Shown here: positions 7,932-22,268 of the stretch, in pieces | How the letters are laid out: every line of letters begins with the position of its first letter | How positions within the stretch are numbered: the first letter of the stretch is position 1 | IMG/VR virus record: IMGVR_UViG_3300020572_000044 | Coordinates: 1-22,967 of that record | Length of the DNA stretch: 22,967 bases | Strand: one strand, 5' to 3' | Origin: a virus | The notes under the pieces: generated by a model | The model's input: the letters and a program-made list of their open reading frames with translations, nothing else | Database searches by the model: none | What the model was told of the DNA's origin: nothing | Made by a program: the position numbers and the translations under genes

Positions 7932-8502
7932 AAATTACACAGACTTAGAAATAATAAACAGAATTAGAGGGCTTAAATCATTCAAAGGTTTTCCGCTCCA
8001 AAGGTATATTGTAGGGATTCGTTCAAATGATGATATTACAAACAAGTATGATGATAAATTCTATATTTTTGAAGGGGAGCGTTTTATAACTATGACAACA
8101 GGCACAACCAATCCTGGTTCTCCAATTTTAGAAGCTGGCTTTTTGAAATACAATAAAGTTGGTGCGGCGGTTGTGAAAGCAAATGAATGCTATTACGACC
8201 TTTGGCAACATGGGTATCACATGGGAAAAATGGAGGCACTTCGACAAGTTAACCCTATTATAGTTTATCGTGACGGGGATCGTGACGGTAAAAGCGAAGA
8301 AATCGGAACGCCTATATCTGGACTTTATGGTATCAATTTTCACACAAATGATTACAATAAGTTTTCAAAAGAAATTAAAACAAACATAGGCAACTGGTCA
8401 GCAGGATGTCAAGTTGTAAATGACTGCGAAAAATATTATCAATTGATCCCGACTTTTCGAGTTCAAAAGTTTGTGACTTATTTTTTATTACAAGAATTTT
8501 AA
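7924..8502 (+). CDS. Putative lysis enzyme, L,D-transpeptidase-like His...SAGC signature
   Basis: 192 residues, no signal peptide. A central block (GYHMGKMEALRQ, PIIVYRDGDRDGKSEE) leads to GINFH (His140) and then GNWSAGCQVV (Ser159, Gly161, Cys162). A conserved His followed about 20 residues later by S-x-G-C is the catalytic layout of YkuD-type L,D-transpeptidases, which act on peptidoglycan peptide stems. The enzyme probably serves as the phage endolysin, because it follows the membrane lysis candidates and no lysozyme or amidase is seen elsewhere in the window. Whether it cleaves rather than cross-links peptidoglycan is not shown. This is the last gene of the late unit. Confidence 0.5.
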   Translation: MVRNYTDLEIINRIRGLKSFKGFPLQRYIVGIRSNDDITNKYDDKFYIFEGERFITMTTGTTNPGSPILEAGFLKYNKVGAAVVKANECYYDLWQHGYHMGKMEALRQVNPIIVYRDGDRDGKSEEIGTPISGLYGINFHTNDYNKFSKEIKTNIGNWSAGCQVVNDCEKYYQLIPTFRVQKFVTYFLLQEF

Positions 8503-8571: not shown

Positions 8572-8754
8572 ATGAGAGACTTTAATTTTAAACCACAAGG
8601 TTACGGAGCTTACCTTGTTGAGTACATTTCCCCAAAAACAAGCAAAATTTGGAAAAAAGTCATTACCGATATGCAAGTAATTGATGCAACCAAAAACGCT
8701 GAATACCCAAAAATCAAAGATATTGAACAACTAAAAAGGATGGTTAAATCATGA
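8572..8754 (+). CDS. Hypothetical small basic protein
   Basis: 60 residues, first gene of the unit controlled by the promoter at 8510. Sequence pattern (GYGAYLVEYISPKTSKIWKK, then ATKNAEYPKIKDIEQLKRMV) is rich in Lys and aromatic residues and looks like a small DNA/RNA-associated or regulatory phage protein, but no family was recognised. The stop overlaps the next ATG (ATGA). Confidence 0.6.
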   Translation: MRDFNFKPQGYGAYLVEYISPKTSKIWKKVITDMQVIDATKNAEYPKIKDIEQLKRMVKS

Positions 8755-9881: not shown

Positions 9882-10115
9882 ATGGAAAAAACTAACCAAG
9901 TATTCTGGACAATGAAGGACGGAACACAAATAGACATTGATAATATGAGTATAAATCATTTAAGAAATACTTTAAAAATGATTATTAAAAATATAAAAGC
10001 AAAAAAACGCCTAACTCATCTACATGGAGAAATAGCACAACAAATGTATGATCAAATGATTGAAGAAGAATTCAGCAGTGATAGTGACTTTGAAATTTTT
10101 ATTGGTGAATTATAA
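9882..10115 (+). CDS. Hypothetical protein, last gene of the 8572 unit
   Basis: 77 residues (MKDGTQIDIDNMSINHLRNTLKM, KAKKRLTHLHGEIAQQMYDQ). The W-MKDG--I-I--MS-NHLRNTLKMI arrangement is typical of a small phage protein family seen in Bacteroidota, function unknown. An acidic tail (EEEFSSDSDFEIFIGEL) follows a basic helix. An intrinsic terminator lies 31 bases past the stop, which closes the unit. Confidence 0.6.
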   Translation: MEKTNQVFWTMKDGTQIDIDNMSINHLRNTLKMIIKNIKAKKRLTHLHGEIAQQMYDQMIEEEFSSDSDFEIFIGEL

Positions 10116-10145
10116 TTACTAACTTTACACCTCATGGTTTAGGTT

Positions 10146-10180
10146 CTGCGTCGCTCGAAAGGGTGGCGCAGTTTTTTTTT
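10146..10180 (+). terminator. Strong intrinsic terminator
   Basis: An 11-bp stem (10146-10156 with 10161-10171, three G-T wobbles) is capped by a GAAA tetraloop and followed by nine T (10172-10180). It ends the 8572-10115 transcript immediately before the repeat-rich non-coding region. Confidence 0.9.
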
Positions 10181-10441
10181 GGGAAATATTTAAAAATATC
10201 AAAACTAAAAGTTTCCCGTTTTAAAACAAGTTAAAAGTTTAATAATTAAATAGTTAAATCAAAAAAAAAATATTTATAAAAAAAAACAAATTATATAGCC
10301 CCTATACTATACCGTAAAAAATTATTTTTTTTCTGAAAAAAAGTTTAAAAGTTTCCCGATTGGTTTAACATATTATATATCAATAAATTACAAGGGAAAC
10401 TTTCGGGAAACTTTTACTTTATGGATTTTTAAATATTTCCC
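10181..10441. other. Symmetric inverted-repeat/iteron region, candidate replication origin
   Basis: No gene. A 17-bp sequence GGGAAATATTTAAAAAT (10181-10197) is repeated as its exact reverse complement at 10425-10441. Between them are four copies of the core GGGAAACTTT: two inverted (10208-10217, 10348-10357, both within AAAAGTTTCCCG) and two forward (10394-10403, 10405-10414). The interior is extremely AT-rich (A and T runs at 10259-10345). Iterons plus an AT-rich unwinding stretch, directly upstream of the primase/helicase genes, suggest the phage origin. Alternatives are a partition-type or repressor-binding array. Confidence 0.55.
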
Positions 10442-10522: not shown

Positions 10523-10553
10523 ATTGTAGATTGATGAATAATTATTATATTTG
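10523..10553 (+). promoter_or_regulatory. Bacteroidota-type promoter for leader RNA and replication genes
   Basis: ATTG (10523-10526), 19 bases, TATATTTG (10546-10553). Same geometry as the promoters at 8510, 18126 and 18813. Transcription should start near 10559. Between the origin candidate and this promoter (10442-10522) only AT-rich sequence is seen. Confidence 0.75.
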
Positions 10554-10559
10554 TATTCG

Positions 10560-10660
10560 TTAAGGTTGATACAGAACCATAAACGATAAAGAAATTATTA
10601 GAAAGGTTTGTTGTGTTAGTAGGGCTGTATCCCCAAACGCACAACAAACCTTTTTTTTTT
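10560..10660 (+). ncRNA. Structured leader RNA with kissing-loop hairpins and intrinsic terminator
   Basis: Start is estimated from the promoter. Hairpin 1: GGTT (10564-10567), loop GATACAG (10568-10574), AACC (10575-10578). Hairpin 2: a perfect 14-bp stem (10602-10615 with 10640-10653) whose top carries GGG (10622-10624), loop CTGTATC (10625-10631), CCC (10632-10634). The two 7-base loops are exact reverse complements. The outer stem runs into T10 (10651-10660), so hairpin 2 is also an intrinsic terminator. A third GATACAG (10667-10673) ends one base before the HNH start codon. Either an attenuator for the replication operon, or a free small RNA of about 100 bases. No coding frame was found here. 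Confidence 0.7.
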
Positions 10661-10674
10661 AACATAGATACAGT

Positions 10675-11166
10675 ATGGAAAAAGAAGAATGGAAATCAAT
10701 TACAAATTATGAGGGACTTTACGAAGTCAGCTCTTTAGGTAATGTTAAATCGTTAGGTAACAATAAAACTAAAAAAGAAAAAGTTTTAAAGCCAAGATTA
10801 AATAGATGTGGGTATTATCAAGTTTATTTATCAAAGTTAAATGTACCTTCAACTTTTAATATCCACCAATTAGTAGCAGTAGCATTTTTAAATCATAAGC
10901 CTTGCGGTCATAAATTAGTAGTAGACCATATAAATAATAATAAAACAGATAATCGAGAAGATAATTTACAGATTGTAACACAAAGATTTAACACTTGTAA
11001 AATTAAAGTAAATTACACTTCAGAATTTAAAGGTGTATCATGGCATAAGCGAAGTAATAAATGGACATCAAGAATATCATTAGATAATAAAAGTATTCAT
11101 TTAGGAATGTTTGACTGTGAATTAAAAGCATCGTTAGCATATCAAAACAAATTAAAAACATTATGA
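10675..11166 (+). CDS. HNH homing-type endonuclease (NUMOD4 - HNH - AP2)
   Basis: 163 residues. NUMOD4 at the start (EEWKSITNYEGLYEVSSLGN), then an HNH core with IHQLVAVAFL (His64) and VDHINNNKTDNREDNL (about 83-98), then an AP2-like DNA-binding part (FKGVSWHKRSNKW, HLGMFDCELKASLAYQ). Free-standing endonucleases of this build cut DNA at specific sites and spread their own gene. It lies between the leader RNA and the primase; its TGA overlaps the primase ATG, so it is now built into the replication operon. No intron or split gene was seen nearby. Confidence 0.9.
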   Translation: MEKEEWKSITNYEGLYEVSSLGNVKSLGNNKTKKEKVLKPRLNRCGYYQVYLSKLNVPSTFNIHQLVAVAFLNHKPCGHKLVVDHINNNKTDNREDNLQIVTQRFNTCKIKVNYTSEFKGVSWHKRSNKWTSRISLDNKSIHLGMFDCELKASLAYQNKLKTL

Positions 11167-13628
11167 GTTTAATAGAATCAGCATTTGACATGCTAAACGA
11201 GGGGTTAAACCCTTTACCATTGAATAGTAATAAATCACCTAAATTAAAAAAAGGGCATAACTATTTGTATGAAAAGGTAAAAGAGGAAGATATAGAGAGT
11301 TTGTTTGCTTTTGCCGACAAGATTGGTATTTCGTGTGGATCTGTTTCAGATGGGTTTTATTGTTTAGACTTTGATAAACACAACGGTGAAAATATAGATG
11401 TTATTTACGATGCATTTATAAGCCAACCTTACATTTATTCTTTTATTGAGGAGGGTAAAATGTCTGTTTATAAAACAATGGGGGGTGGATATCATATTTA
11501 TTTTAGATACACTAAACAAGTTTTAAGCGGTGAAGTTTTTTCATTTTGGGATACTAAGTCTGTAATGATTGAAATACGTGGTAACGGTCAATATTGCGCT
11601 TGCTATCCAAGTGAGGGCTATACTCATTTAACAGGAGTTGAATATTTAAAACTAACTGAAATTGAAACTGAAAAAGAATGGCTTTCAATAAAAGATTTTG
11701 CTCATTCGTTTAATCTTTATAAAGAGCTAGTAAGCAAAAATAAGATAAGCACCAACGATAAAAAATGGGCGGATTCATGGAAAATTGACACACCTGATGG
11801 AAAATATAATTTAGAGTTTGAAAGCGAAGCAAAAGAAATATTATCAAAAGCAGGATGGCAAGTTACCGAACAAAAAGATATTGAATATTGGACTAGACCA
11901 AACAAAGATAGTAAGGATGGTTTTTCTGCAACCTTTGGGCATTTTAAAGGTATGTTCTATATTTTTTCTGAAGATGCTTCATGTAGACCTTTTAATGCAA
12001 GGCAAGCCTATTCACCTTTTAATATACTTACAGAATTAAAGTATGATGGTGATTGGAAAAGAGCAAAGGATGAGTTAAGGAAACGGTTTAACATGGTCGA
12101 TAACGAGGAGTTTTGGAGCAAAAACGAAAAAGGAAACTACTCATTAAACAACAAAAGATTTAAAGATTTTTTAGAAGCAAATGACTTTTTTAAAAATTCA
12201 CCGAATGAAGATAGTACATTTGACTTTATTCATAAAGATGGTATTTTCTTAAAAATTGTTTATGAAAAAGACATCAAAGATTTTGTTATTGATTGGATTG
12301 AAAAGAACCAATGCGATGAGGGAGTGTTTAATTTAATGACTGGTAACTTGAAGTTTTTTAAAAGAGATTACCTTTCGCTTTTAAAATCAAAACCAATTAA
12401 AACCTTAAAAGATACATCAACAGAATGCTATTCGTTTTATAAAAATTGTATCTTAAAAATAACAAAAGATGAAAAAAAGATATTAAGTTATTCCGATATT
12501 GATTTAGCTATTTGGCAAGATCAAGTTATTAATCGTGACTATTCTCCTTACGATCATCACCAAGCTGAATATAGAAAATTTATCTGGAAAATATCAGGTG
12601 AAAATGTTGAAAAATATAAAGCTTTTCAAAGTGTTATTGGATATTTAATGCATGGTTATAAAAATAATTCTAACAATAAAGCAATTGTTTTTAACGATGA
12701 AATTATTAGCGAAAACCCTAATGGACGAAGTGGCAAGGGTATCTTTTGGAATGCCTTAAAACATTTGCGAAAAGTTCAATCTTTGGATGGTAAAAACTTT
12801 GATTTCAATAAGCCTTTTCCTTATCAAAATGTTTCAACAGATTGTCAATTATTAATTTTTGATGATGTTAGGAAGAATTTTAACTTTGAGAATTTGTTTA
12901 GTGTAATTACAGAAGGTATAACGATTGAATACAAGGGTAAAAATTCAATAAAATTAGACGTTACTGAAAGCCCTAAAATAATGATCACGACTAATTATAC
13001 AATTAATGGGGATTCAGCTTCTTTTTTAGCACGAAAATATGAGGTAGAAATGAGCAGTTATTTTAATGATAAATTTACTCCTGTTCAGGAATTTGGGCAT
13101 CAACTTTTTAACGATTGGGATAAAGATGAATGGTTAAGATATGATAATTATATGAGTGAATGCGAAAAAATTTATTTGAATAAAGGATTAATTGAAATGC
13201 CTTTAAAAAATCTGAATTTTAGAAAGTTAGTAAATGATATTAGTGATGAAATGCATACTTATTTTCATGGTATTATTGAAAACAATGAATGGATGAGTGT
13301 AAAGGATGTTTATGATAATTTTTTGATTAACTATCCTGAATTGAAAAACAAAAATATTACTCAAAATATAGTGACTCGCAACTTAAAAAAATTCTGCGAA
13401 TATTACAATTGTATTTATGAAAACATAACTAGTCATGGAGCTTCAAGAATTAGACTTACAAAAAAAATATTAATTGAAGAAACACAAACTGAAGAACTAC
13501 AACCTAAAGAACCACAAACTGAAGAACCACAAGCTGAAGAAACACCGCAAGTCATTGGCAACAGACTCGTTAAAAATGAAATAGAGGAAGCAAATGAATG
13601 GGATTCACTTCAAAATAAAGTATTATGA
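11163..13628 (+). CDS. Replicative primase / SF3 (D5-like) helicase
   Basis: 821 residues. The N-terminal part is a PrimPol-type primase: GISCGSVSDGFYCLDFDKHN (about 55-74, with the acidic metal-binding pair CLDFD) and a later YKTMGGGYHIYFRY (about 104-117) and EIRGNGQYC. The C-terminal part is an SF3 helicase: Walker A NPNGRSGKGIF (about 516-526), Walker B LLIFDDV (about 562-568), motif C KIMITTNY (about 604-611). Such fused proteins unwind phage DNA and lay primers at the fork. A Glu/Pro/Gln linker with a repeated QTEE(P/L)Q unit follows at about 771-798. The start overlaps the HNH stop, the stop overlaps the SF2 helicase ATG. Confidence 0.85.
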   Translation: MSLIESAFDMLNEGLNPLPLNSNKSPKLKKGHNYLYEKVKEEDIESLFAFADKIGISCGSVSDGFYCLDFDKHNGENIDVIYDAFISQPYIYSFIEEGKMSVYKTMGGGYHIYFRYTKQVLSGEVFSFWDTKSVMIEIRGNGQYCACYPSEGYTHLTGVEYLKLTEIETEKEWLSIKDFAHSFNLYKELVSKNKISTNDKKWADSWKIDTPDGKYNLEFESEAKEILSKAGWQVTEQKDIEYWTRPNKDSKDGFSATFGHFKGMFYIFSEDASCRPFNARQAYSPFNILTELKYDGDWKRAKDELRKRFNMVDNEEFWSKNEKGNYSLNNKRFKDFLEANDFFKNSPNEDSTFDFIHKDGIFLKIVYEKDIKDFVIDWIEKNQCDEGVFNLMTGNLKFFKRDYLSLLKSKPIKTLKDTSTECYSFYKNCILKITKDEKKILSYSDIDLAIWQDQVINRDYSPYDHHQAEYRKFIWKISGENVEKYKAFQSVIGYLMHGYKNNSNNKAIVFNDEIISENPNGRSGKGIFWNALKHLRKVQSLDGKNFDFNKPFPYQNVSTDCQLLIFDDVRKNFNFENLFSVITEGITIEYKGKNSIKLDVTESPKIMITTNYTINGDSASFLARKYEVEMSSYFNDKFTPVQEFGHQLFNDWDKDEWLRYDNYMSECEKIYLNKGLIEMPLKNLNFRKLVNDISDEMHTYFHGIIENNEWMSVKDVYDNFLINYPELKNKNITQNIVTRNLKKFCEYYNCIYENITSHGASRIRLTKKILIEETQTEELQPKEPQTEEPQAEETPQVIGNRLVKNEIEEANEWDSLQNKVL

Positions 13629-14833
13629 AAAAAATACTTAGAGATTATCAAAGTGAATTTGCAAATAAAGCATATTTAATATTAAAAGAAAAAAAAATAG
13701 TTTATCTAGCGATGGAACCTCGCTGCGGAAAAACTGCAACAGCTTTAGAGACTTGTAGACTATACGGAGCTAAAAACGTTTTGTTTCTTACAAAGAAAAA
13801 AGCAATTAGTTCAATCCAAAATGACTATTATAGTTTTGGCTTTAAATTTAAAATAACAGTAATTAATGATGAACAATTAGAGAATATTAATAATAGCTTT
13901 GATTTAATTATACATGATGAGCATCACCGCTTTGGAGCATTCCCTAAACCATCAAAACGAGTTAAGGAATATAAATTGAAATACTCTTTTTTGCCTATGA
14001 TTTTTTTAAGTGGCACGCCTGCCGCTGAAAGTTATTCTCAAATGTTCCATCAATTTTGGGTAAGCTCGTACACCCCATTTAAACAATACGGAAGCTTTTA
14101 TAAGTGGTCAAAAACTTTCGTTAATGTAAAGCCAAAACACTTAGGTCATGGAGTTGTAAATGATTACTCCGATGCAAAAAAAGATTTGATTGATTTAGTG
14201 ATTGATCCTTATATTTTAAAATACACCCAAAAAGAAAGTGGCTTTGAGTCAAAGGTAAATGAACACGTGATTTACATTCCTGAACTTTGTCAAAACTTAA
14301 TATCAAAGCTAAAAAAAGACAAGGTTATTGTTGGCAAAGAAGAAACAATTTTAGCAGATTCGGGAGCTAAAATGATGCAGAAAATACACCAATTAGAAAG
14401 TGGCACAATTAAATTTGAAAGTGGTAAATCTCAAAGTTTAGATTACTCAAAAGCGATTTTCATTCGTGATAAATTTAAAGGCAAAAAGATAGCTATTCTT
14501 TATTATTACGTTGAGGAGCTTGAACTATTGAAGCAAGTTTTCCCTAACCATACAAATGATTTAAACGAGTTTAATACAACCGATAAAGATTTCATAGGTC
14601 AACAATATTCAACTGCATTAGGTGTAAACTTGTCAAAAGCAGAATGTTTAATTTTTTATAACTTTGGGTTTTCAGGCACAAATTTCATTCAGGCCAGAGA
14701 TCGAATGACAATTAAAGAAAGGCTTATTAACGATGTTTATTTTGTTTATGCAAAAGGATCATTAAGCGAAAAGATACACCAAGTGATAAAACAGAAAAAA
14801 AACTTTACCGAAGCACAATTTAAGAAATGTTAG
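13625..14833 (+). CDS. SF2 DNA helicase (DEAD/SNF2-like)
   Basis: 402 residues. Motif I MEPRCGKTA (GKT at 35-37), motif II DEHH (98-101), motif III SGTPAAES (129-136), and near the C-terminus a motif VI-like FIQARDRMTIK (about 354-364), where the usual second arginine spacing is altered. The Q-motif-like LRDYQSEFA lies at the start. Such enzymes remodel DNA at forks or during recombination in phages. It sits between primase/helicase and a VRR-NUC nuclease with overlaps on both sides, so all belong to one replication/repair operon. Confidence 0.85.
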   Translation: MKKILRDYQSEFANKAYLILKEKKIVYLAMEPRCGKTATALETCRLYGAKNVLFLTKKKAISSIQNDYYSFGFKFKITVINDEQLENINNSFDLIIHDEHHRFGAFPKPSKRVKEYKLKYSFLPMIFLSGTPAAESYSQMFHQFWVSSYTPFKQYGSFYKWSKTFVNVKPKHLGHGVVNDYSDAKKDLIDLVIDPYILKYTQKESGFESKVNEHVIYIPELCQNLISKLKKDKVIVGKEETILADSGAKMMQKIHQLESGTIKFESGKSQSLDYSKAIFIRDKFKGKKIAILYYYVEELELLKQVFPNHTNDLNEFNTTDKDFIGQQYSTALGVNLSKAECLIFYNFGFSGTNFIQARDRMTIKERLINDVYFVYAKGSLSEKIHQVIKQKKNFTEAQFKKC

Positions 14834-19370: not shown

Positions 19371-19938
19371 GGTTAACCCAAATAACCCACGATTAATCAA
19401 AGACGATAACTTTAAAAAGTTGGTTCAGTCAATAAAAGACTTTCCAGAGATGTTAGATATTAGACCTATTGTAGTTAATCAGGATATGATTATTTTAGGT
19501 GGTAATATGAGATTTAAAGCTTGTAAAGAAGCTGGGTTAAAAGAAGTGCCGATTATAGTTGCAGATAACCTTACTGAAGAACAACAAAGGGAGTTTTTGA
19601 TTAAAGATAATACAAGCGGTGGAGAATGGGACTTTGAAATGTTAGCGAATGAATGGGATGTTGAGCAGTTATCTGAATGGGGTTTGGATGTTGGTGGATT
19701 TGATTTAGATAGCGATGAGTTAAGTACTGATTTTAGTTTGCCAGACGGAGATAAAGCACCATTTCAACAAATGACTTTTACTTTAGCAGATGAACAAGCG
19801 GAGCAAATAAAAAATGCAATAGCAGATATTAAAGCAACTGAAGATTATAAATATTGTGAAACATTAGGGAACGAAAACAGTAACGGAAACGCACTTTATT
19901 TAATTATTATGCAATGGGCAGAGCAAAGGAAATTATAG
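19342..19938 (+). CDS. ParB-like (ParB/sulfiredoxin fold) protein of a DNA-modification unit
   Basis: 198 residues. The ParB-N type domain covers about 1-75: KLSEVKVNPNNPRLIKDD, then RPIVVNQDMIILGGNMRFKA (GGN-R at 53-57) and GLKEVPIIV. The middle (LTEEQQREFLIKDNTSGGEW) and C-terminus (MTFTLADEQAEQIKNAI) fit the phage subgroup that accompanies DNA methylases or Mom enzymes. Members of this fold bind nucleotides and act in partitioning or DNA processing; in phage modification clusters the role is poorly defined. The next gene, a Mom-type enzyme, overlaps by 25 bases, so they are probably co-translated. Confidence 0.75.
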   Translation: MKLVKLSEVKVNPNNPRLIKDDNFKKLVQSIKDFPEMLDIRPIVVNQDMIILGGNMRFKACKEAGLKEVPIIVADNLTEEQQREFLIKDNTSGGEWDFEMLANEWDVEQLSEWGLDVGGFDLDSDELSTDFSLPDGDKAPFQQMTFTLADEQAEQIKNAIADIKATEDYKYCETLGNENSNGNALYLIIMQWAEQRKL

Positions 19939-20606
19939 TTAAAGTAGTACCAAGTAAGATAGCTAATGAGTTTGTGAAGAAACATCATTATAGCGGAAAG
20001 GTAGTGCCAAACTCAACTTTGCATTTTGGTTGTTTTTTAGATGAAAAATTACACGGGGTTATGAGTTATGGTAGTCCAATGGTTAAATCAAAAGTTATTC
20101 ATTACGTTGAAAATACAAAATGGAATGAAGTTATAGAATTAAATAGAATGGCTTTTGATGATTATTTGCCAAAATATTCTGAAAGTAGGTGTATTGCAAT
20201 AACAATTAAACTTATAAAAAAAAACGCACCACATATAAAATGGATTTTAAGTTTTAGTGATGGTAATTTATGCGGAGATGGAACTATTTACAGAGCAAGC
20301 GGTTTTAAATTAATAGGGGTTAATAAAAATACAAGTACTTATCAAATGCCAAACGGAGAAGTTGTTTGTAGTTTAACAAGTTCAGCACATAGAACAAAAG
20401 AAAGTAATGGTAAAAGTGGTACAAGTTGGATAAAAGATAATGGAGGTAAAAAATTAGATGGGTTTCAAATAAGATATATTTATTTGATAGATAAAAGCAA
20501 TAAAATAACCGTTCCAATATTACCATTTAGCAAAATAGATGAAATGGGAGCGGGGATGTATAAAGGAGAAAAAATAACAATAGCAGAGAGAAAAGAAAAT
20601 AATTAG
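19914..20606 (+). CDS. Mom-type GNAT enzyme, DNA adenine hypermodification
   Basis: 230 residues. The first 140 match the Mom pattern: KHHYSG (23-28), FGCFLDEKLHGVMSYGSP (38-55), IELNRMAFDD (74-83), KYSESR (87-92), WILSFSDG (110-117), GTIYRASGFKLIG (123-135). Mu Mom is a GNAT-fold protein that adds a carbamoylmethyl (glycinamide-type) group to N6 of adenine and so blocks restriction enzymes. The C-terminal 90 residues (TSSAHRTKESNGKSG and a long tail) are an extension not needed for the match. A ParB-like gene lies upstream and a tRNA-Gly-like RNA 18 bases downstream. Chemistry in this phage is inferred. Confidence 0.7.
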   Translation: MGRAKEIIVKVVPSKIANEFVKKHHYSGKVVPNSTLHFGCFLDEKLHGVMSYGSPMVKSKVIHYVENTKWNEVIELNRMAFDDYLPKYSESRCIAITIKLIKKNAPHIKWILSFSDGNLCGDGTIYRASGFKLIGVNKNTSTYQMPNGEVVCSLTSSAHRTKESNGKSGTSWIKDNGGKKLDGFQIRYIYLIDKSNKITVPILPFSKIDEMGAGMYKGEKITIAERKENN

Positions 20607-20710: not shown

Positions 20711-21088
20711 ATGGCATACGACAAACAAAAGATATTTGAACAGGCAAAGGAAATGATAGTTAAACATAAGTTGGTTTTTATGGATGAAGTGCCTGATTTT
20801 TTGCCTTGTAGTCGATCAACTTTTTACGATTACTTTCCTGATGGCTCGGACGAATTGGACATCCTTAAAAGCCTTACTTCAGTAAACAAGACGCAGATAA
20901 AAGTATCTTTACGGTCAAAGTGGTACAAGTCAAATGCACCCGCTTTGCAAATGGCATTATATAAATTGACAGCAAACCCTGAAGAGCTTAAAAAACTTTC
21001 TATGCAATATATTGAAAGCGAGAATAAAAACACGAACTTCGACATAAATACTCTTTATGATAAAGAAGCACCCGAAGAATTGGAATAA
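20711..21088 (+). CDS. Terminase small subunit (TerS)
   Basis: 125 residues. A predicted helix-turn-helix (DEVPDFLPCSRSTFYDYFPD, about 25-44) at the N-terminus, then a helical part (INKTQIKVSLRSKWYKS-like, ALQMALYKLTANPEELKKLS) and an acidic tail, as in the TerS type of Bacteroidota phages that recognises the packaging start. It is followed by TerL with a 32-base overlap, the usual order. The start at 20711 lies 15 bases behind the tRNA-like element. Confidence 0.75.
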   Translation: MAYDKQKIFEQAKEMIVKHKLVFMDEVPDFLPCSRSTFYDYFPDGSDELDILKSLTSVNKTQIKVSLRSKWYKSNAPALQMALYKLTANPEELKKLSMQYIESENKNTNFDINTLYDKEAPEELE

Positions 21089-22268
21089 GCTAGGGAACGC
21101 TACGAGGTACTTTGTTGTAACAGGGGGGCGTGGTTCTGGTAAGTCTTTTGAGGTAGGTAGGTTTATAAGCTTGCTATCTTTTGAAGTAGGTCATAAAATA
21201 CTATTCACTAGGCAAACAATGACTTCAGCACATTTATCAATCATACCTGAATTTCAAGAAAAAATTGATTTGCTTAAATTAAATAATTCATTTGATATTC
21301 AGAAGTCCGAAATACTAAACAGGGATTCAGGGAGTAAAATAATCTTTAAAGGTATCAAAACAAGTTCAGGAGATCAGACCGCAAACCTTAAATCTTTGCA
21401 AGGTGTTACAACTTGGATAATAGATGAAGCTGAAGAACTTACAGATGAAACAACCTTTGATAAAATAAACTTTTCAATTAGGAAAAAAGGAAAACAAAAC
21501 AGGGTGATTCTTATTCTTAATCCAAGTACAAAAGAGCATTGGATTTATCAAAGATTCTTTGAACAGCAAGGCGTTGCGGAAGGATACAATGGTATAAAAA
21601 AAAACGTCACCTACATTAACACAACCTACTTAGATAATTTAGAAAACTTAGATGAGTCTTTTCTTTATGACATTGAACAAGTAAAGAAAAACAATCCTGA
21701 TAAATATAAGCACGTTATTCTAGGGAGTTGGTTAAACAAAGCGGATGGCGTTGTGTTTACCAATTGGAGGTTTGGGGAGTTCAATCCTGATAATTTGCAA
21801 ACGTCTTTTGGATTAGACTTTGGGTTTTCAATCGATCCTGATGCACTTGCTGAAGTTGCTATTGACAAAGCAAAAAAGATTATCTATGTAAAAGAACATA
21901 TTTACCAACGTGGCATAAAAACCCATATATTAGCAGAAATGTTAAAAGATAGGACTCAAGGCAAATTAATTATTGCAGATAGTGCTGAACCTAGATTGAT
22001 TGAAGATTTAAAGTTTAGCGGTGTAAATATAAAGAAAGTTAAAAAAGGAACGATTGAAAGTGGTATAATACGAATGCAGGACTTTGAAATAATAGTAGAG
22101 CAAAATAGTAGTAATATTGCAAAGGAATTTAATAACTATGTTTATTCAGATAAAAAGACTCATTTGTACGTTGATAACTATAACCATATTTGTGATGCGA
22201 TCCGTTATAATGTTATAAGTCAATTAGACAATCCTAATAGTGGAAAATATTTTATAAATACAATATGA
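21057..22268 (+). CDS. Terminase large subunit (TerL)
   Basis: 403 residues. ATPase: Walker A GGRGSGKS (23-30), Walker B IIDEAEE (121-127), coupling motif ILNPS (152-156 region). RNase H-like nuclease: GLDFGFSIDPDA (Asp254), IIADSAEP (Asp308) and HICDAIRY (Asp380). It is the motor and nuclease that packages DNA into the procapsid through the portal. Length is typical. The start overlaps TerS by 32 bases, the stop overlaps the next gene by 4 bases. Confidence 0.95.
   Translation: MIKKHPKNWNKLGNATRYFVVTGGRGSGKSFEVGRFISLLSFEVGHKILFTRQTMTSAHLSIIPEFQEKIDLLKLNNSFDIQKSEILNRDSGSKIIFKGIKTSSGDQTANLKSLQGVTTWIIDEAEELTDETTFDKINFSIRKKGKQNRVILILNPSTKEHWIYQRFFEQQGVAEGYNGIKKNVTYINTTYLDNLENLDESFLYDIEQVKKNNPDKYKHVILGSWLNKADGVVFTNWRFGEFNPDNLQTSFGLDFGFSIDPDALAEVAIDKAKKIIYVKEHIYQRGIKTHILAEMLKDRTQGKLIIADSAEPRLIEDLKFSGVNIKKVKKGTIESGIIRMQDFEIIVEQNSSNIAKEFNNYVYSDKKTHLYVDNYNHICDAIRYNVISQLDNPNSGKYFINTI

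Follow-up and report, generated by a model that had tools for sequence, protein, structure and literature searches.

The stretch of DNA analysed here, which we call the window, is a 22,967-base virus contig from a phage of flavobacterial type. Its replication operon, on the plus strand, opens with a NUMOD4-HNH(-AP2) homing-type endonuclease gene at 10675–11166 (Pfam NUMOD4, 7e-15, and HNH_3, 6e-7; PHROG HNH endonuclease). This is followed by a Prim-Pol/DUF5906 replication protein of the primase-helicase type at 11163–13628 (Pfam; PHROG DNA polymerase/primase) and, in the same operon, by a DEAD/ResIII-type helicase at 13625–14833 (Pfam and PHROG). Upstream of the operon's leader, iteron-like AAAGTTTCCCG and CGGGAAACTTT repeats at 10206–10416 (direct repeats D3 and D5, inverted repeats I1 and I12) form a possible origin. 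The region that holds them, 10110–10420, is AT-rich, also contains CCCCTATAC and has an origin-like look. Stretches rich in GAAACTTTC lie in a similar arrangement 5' of the leader in three relatives (L012, L015 and L034). The terminase gene is located at 21057–22268, about 10 kb from the leader. The window also encodes a phage tRNA (18850–18923) and a Mom-like DNA modification protein (19914–20606; PHROG 1384, 7e-52), the latter adjoining a ParB/methyltransferase-like protein.

The leader, on the plus strand, contains two hairpins and three short words. Hairpin 1, GGTT-GATACAG-AACC (10564–10578), presents word A, GATACAG, in its loop (10568–10574), and its stem shows compensating changes in relatives. 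Hairpin 2 (10602–10660) has the make-up of an intrinsic terminator or attenuator, with a GC-containing stem and a T run located between promoter and gene. Its outer arms, 10602–10615 and 10640–10653, form a perfect 14-bp stem, inside which an internal loop leads to a 3-bp inner stem in the hairpin GGG-CTGTATC-CCC (10622–10634), and a T10 run occupies 10651–10660. The apical loop, word B (CTGTATC, 10625–10631), is the exact reverse complement of word A, at an A–B distance of 57 nt. Word C, again GATACAG, lies at 10667–10673, one base before the ATG start codon at 10675, and occurs in relatives as well. The earlier note had described the hairpins, their 7-base loops, the T10 run and the third GATACAG; each was found where it had been placed, and the coordinates and the exact complementarity of the two loops were confirmed base by base. 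The internal loop of the window (10616–10640) consists of AGUA opposite CAAA, a variant of a bulged-G-type motif. In most leaders of the window's own scaffold and in the HNH-linked leaders described below, AGUA opposite GAA between the outer and inner stems matches the bulged-G (sarcin-ricin/loop E) consensus, and scaffold F1 and L005 carry UGAA opposite GGA.

A promoter is predicted at 10524–10553 from the sequence, the consensus and the relatives, with TTG at 10524–10526, a 19-nt interval and a −7 box, TATATTTG, at 10546–10553. The sigma-A consensus of Bacteroidetes and Flavobacterium, TAnnTTTG, sits at −12 to −5 (PMC9723704). Because the TATATTTG box fits this consensus, the RNA is expected to start at about 10558. 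Boxes of the same type also lie directly 5' of the relatives' leaders, and that of the L090 leader has diverged. The window RNA from 10559 folds with −29.1 kcal/mol (z = −5.3), and none of 200 shuffles was as good. In dinucleotide shuffles, the 7-mer in the terminator loop matched the upstream part with p = 0.012 and the downstream part with p = 0.015, and the same word was matched on both sides with a frequency of 5e-5. Across 28 whole contigs and two partial records, 31 of 85 promoter-plus-terminator candidates had an upstream complement of at least 7 nt to the terminator loop; when loops were swapped between genomes, 2.9 were expected. No such leader was found in five other Bacteroidetes-type phage records (two covered in part), where 0 of 13 candidates had an upstream loop complement. 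The shuffles, the swapped loops, these other phage records and the covariation described below rule out a chance origin of the word matches.

A primase search of relatives gave 45 loci, whose upstream regions were read for leaders. Scanning upstream for a promoter and a terminator with a complementary loop revealed leaders laid out alike but with different words. Pattern scans returned 10 stretches for the window's own scaffold (W), 73 for scaffold F1 (43 distinct forms) and, for a fragment of type 2, 36 matches, about 24 of them real leaders (16 distinct forms); such exact-pattern searches bias the conserved flanks and not the words. Reading was extended to 28 whole contigs, the window and a partial record of 18 kb; many of the contigs are incomplete genomes. 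Three or more RNA scaffolds, and some minor ones, can be distinguished (44 and 14 aligned distinct leaders, and about 8 of the window's type), all placed at the start of a replication operon in uncultured Bacteroidetes-type phages. The leaders carry more than 20 different words, and complementarity is nearly always retained. Exact GGTTGATACAGAACC matches numbered 39, with only the near-copy L048 of further use, and when annotated phages were searched at the DNA level with the leaders as query, only chance-level matches appeared. In one relative, G029 (34,251 bases), the primase gene is matched at either end of the contig, so that the record probably represents a circularly permuted, near-complete genome of some 34 kb.

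There is usually one recognised leader per genome, heading the replication operon, and in most contigs it is followed by the primase or by a different replication module (DUF6291 with a DnaB/RecA-like ATPase). Second leaders with their own words stand before HNH genes in six contigs and before a second module in G024. The HNH-linked type lies directly 5' of NUMOD4/HNH at L005:6555, L087:3991, G011:6221 (minus strand) and G017:408 (minus strand), and on the minus strand of L138 and L167. Its A/B words are GTCGCAG, GTCGCTG, GTTACGG, ATTGCGG and GTGGACG. Homing endonucleases may travel with their own leader.

It is the relatives that mark the observation as functional, through covariation of the words. 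In 43 of 44 aligned F1 leaders word A is exactly complementary to word B, and the 44th is too once realigned, its A word CATCCTAC pairing exactly with GTAGGATG. The F1 A words include GGCTTCAC, GGTCTGAC, GTCTTCAC, GATCTGAC, GCTCTCAC, GCCTTCAC, GCTCTGAC and GGTCTCAC, each with an exact B partner. The A:B helix is 98.6% paired, and four of its eight pairs have changed on both sides, giving 56 double-change cells that may stem from few events within one lineage counted many times. For the whole structure including the pseudoknot, 99.5% of cells pair, and double-change cells number 77, where shuffles give 19.8. Sliding the structure along the alignment lowers pairing to 63% or less; these controls and the independent scaffolds carry the weight because shuffles do not model relatedness. 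The earlier note had let its reading depend on whether relatives keep the hairpins but lose the loop complementarity. They do not: the loops change and stay complementary.

In scaffold W the three words change together, GATACAG/CTGTATC/GATACAG in the window corresponding to AGTACAG/CTGTACT/AGTACAG in other leaders (L006, L089 and others have AGTACAG as word A with matching B and C). The stem of hairpin 1 compensates independently (GGTT/AACC, GTT/AAC, AGAG/CTCT, GATG/CATC). Word C is present in L006, L089–L091, L093, L094 and G003 (L028), and in all type 2 leaders. In G003, word A is CATCCACT and word C (CATCCAC) runs up to the ATG; in L087, A and B are retained and C is mismatched. Type 2 leaders are without word A, and an AAAGG/CCTTT inner stem carries their B loop. 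Across their six word groups, B matches C near the start codon over 7–9 nt, compared with a mean of 4.5 for cross-comparisons, and a second, often shorter C copy follows the first in tandem. A segment of type 2 leaders, TTTGCGGTTAGCTGCCC(A/T)GTAAAA (for example in L034:2918–2990), is nearly constant, unlike B and C; the search pattern spanned its first 16 bases. This segment may be a binding site for a protein or ligand.

F1 leaders show no word C: the match of each B near its own start codon (3.52 nt) is no better than in random swaps across leaders (3.57 nt). A third target elsewhere in F1 genomes was rejected, as the A word recurs only as A, B or scattered sites and nowhere near another start codon. 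In two related AGTACAG-word genomes, an extra AGTACAG precedes an ATG on the minus strand (AAGTACAGATACAATG; G008:20494 and G011:608), a possible second target in trans. Many F1 terminators (L013 to L203) contain a short ATG-to-stop frame through word B, such as the ten-codon MNLEVKPQRI. It is possibly a leader peptide and more likely incidental; we set the peptide aside, as the frame is absent from W and type 2 leaders and its middle follows the word and not a codon pattern.

The words turn over rapidly. G022 and G030 have primases that are 99.6% identical over 780 residues and carry the words GATCTGAC and GCTCTCAC, respectively. The first 100 nt of their leaders are 89% identical, compared with 94% and 97% in the adjacent 100-nt bins upstream and downstream, and most of the flanks are 96–100% identical. 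Four of the differing leader sites lie in the words, two in A and their two partners in B. The scaffold itself can also differ, as in L020 (F1) and L029 (type 2), whose primases are 87.5% identical, and whole leaders are also swapped between close relatives. Words, and even scaffolds, are thus replaced faster than the gene behind them. Such turnover is the behaviour of specificity determinants; it is not proof of trans action.

The closest known arrangement is that of the CI RNA of satellite phage P4, which is reported to pair with an upstream seqA and a downstream seqC and to cause termination (PMC4825925). A word search of the replication-operon strand of P4 (X51522) gave TTCACAGG at 8651, CCTGTGAA at 8463 and TTCACAGGA at 8384, the last ending ten bases before an ATG. 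We read these as seqA, seqB and seqC, in agreement with the published description of CI (PMC4825925). In both systems an untranslated leader heads a replication operon that includes a primase-helicase (the genes are HNH/Prim-Pol/helicase in the window, the primase or another module in relatives). In both, A, B and C follow in this order on one strand, with B complementary to the other two (in the window, most W leaders and G003; the P4 word has 8 nt) and C just upstream of an ATG, and in P4 a short RNA has been reported to pair with A and C (PMC4825925). The window differs in that B forms the apical loop of an intrinsic terminator, and in its A–B distance (57 nt, compared with 188 in P4). Moreover, relatives may lack A or C and show no sign of lysogeny, and in P4 the processing of a longer transcript yields the CI RNA. 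Immunity in the lysogenic, P4 sense is unlikely here because no tyrosine integrase was found in 33 contig records (serine integrases lay outside the search) and two exact patterns found no copy of F1 or type 2 leaders in GTDB genomes. Judged by word layout, the leader would thus work like P4 CI, and we do not claim membership.

Other small RNAs resemble the leader in part. The C4 antisense RNA of phages P1 and P7 is a short RNA upstream of its own operon that pairs near a translation start. It shares with the leader its nature as a short phage RNA in front of its own operon; however, the window has no covariance-model match to it. The Rfam 15 covariance models, including C4 antisense RNA (RF01695), gave sub-threshold chance matches and none above the gathering cut-off, and a known Rfam family was therefore rejected as the identity of the leader. 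ColE1 RNA I and RNA II interact through 7-nt complementary hairpin loops, and changes of word define compatibility. The earlier note had drawn this comparison; it holds for the kissing loops and fails for the antisense arrangement, as A and B lie on one strand of one predicted transcript at a phage replication operon, and no antisense gene was seen. Attenuators in the leaders of plasmid rep genes (pT181 and pMV158 RNAII class) likewise use a small RNA to control a replication gene at the level of termination or translation, but those countertranscripts come from the opposite strand, whereas the window RNA would form the 5' end of the operon transcript itself.

We propose that the leader gives rise to a terminated RNA of about 100 nt that, like P4 CI, controls its own replication operon by RNA–RNA pairing, a reading that we consider somewhat probable. 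Transcription from the promoter before 10558 would mostly halt at the built-in terminator, and the resulting RNA would expose word B in its apical loop. Made from every genome copy, it would build up with the number of phage genomes. Word B could then pair with A in the 5' hairpin of later nascent transcripts and affect read-through by the polymerase, and/or pair with C, where present, beside the start codon and block translation initiation. Members of the Bacteroidetes lack Shine-Dalgarno sequences and are sensitive to structure, and to the bases, immediately 5' of the start codon (PMC6847099). Covering C should therefore matter. The outcome would be negative feedback on primase and helicase supply, and a co-infecting phage that carries an identical word might be excluded as well. 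Words would diversify on a stable scaffold because only matching words interact. The earlier note's suggestion of a switch, attenuator or trans-acting RNA on the replication operon thus stands as the leading reading, with covarying loops. HNH, which the note counts among the controlled genes, is not the conserved target, as in other relatives the leader immediately precedes the primase or a replication module of an unrelated kind.

Against action in trans, no single target is universal: F1 leaders lack C and type 2 leaders lack A. Because the F1 A word is absent near other start codons, everything could happen within one molecule. The leader might then be a cis-only, riboswitch-like attenuator, in which A–B kissing in one nascent RNA tunes terminator formation, possibly with a protein or ligand at the internal loop, and read-through B–C pairing only folds away the start codon. 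We take this main rival as a realistic possibility that falls short of probable. A is the sole genomic partner of B in F1, the conserved internal loop (UGAA/GGA in F1, AGUA/GAA-like in most W and HNH-linked leaders) fits a rigid tertiary fold, and B–C pairing is the minimum-energy fold of the type 2 read-through RNA. However, a structural helix needs no word change between near-identical phages, C copies beyond the terminator would be unneeded, and type 2 is entirely without A.

Word change also bears on a reading of the words as DNA, namely as inverted or direct protein binding sites with incidental hairpins. GATACAG and CTGTATC are one DNA site in two orientations, and type 2 has tandem C copies. 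Yet the words lie exactly in hairpin loops, the stems covary independently, the A–B spacing differs by single bases, and the word changes while the downstream primase is 99.6% identical, although a separate repressor might still take part; we find such an operator highly improbable. Control of copy number by kissing words, as in ColE1, with the terminated transcript priming or licensing replication at the repeats, is very unlikely in our judgement. It would account for the iteron-like repeats directly upstream and the similar sequence before other leaders, but the operon has its own Prim-Pol, both words are on one strand with no RNA II/RNA I antisense pair seen, and the origin is itself putative. 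An assembly RNA resembling phi29 pRNA, forming rings through two complementary loops on one small RNA, is barely credible, as type 2 has one such loop and the element belongs to the replication operon and is not tied to the terminase genes.

Self-encoded antisense control of the P4 type is mainly known from satellites and prophages of enterobacteria. The leaders described here have independent-looking scaffolds and appear to act in a P4-like manner in widespread, uncultured and apparently non-integrating phages. We suggest, tentatively and as a rather doubtful extension of the P4-like reading, that apparently non-integrating phages of Bacteroidetes carry an exchangeable RNA identity tag of 7–8 nt at the head of the replication operon. 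A phage's own terminated leader would silence the replication genes of any co-infecting phage with an identical tag, which amounts to RNA-based superinfection exclusion, and selection for new tags would drive the coordinated change of two or three words. The more than 20 matched words are a natural library with which specificity can be tested directly in small reporters, and the leaders offer orthogonal RNA parts for Bacteroidetes. If true, the proposal would mean an RNA-based incompatibility between phages without lysogeny.
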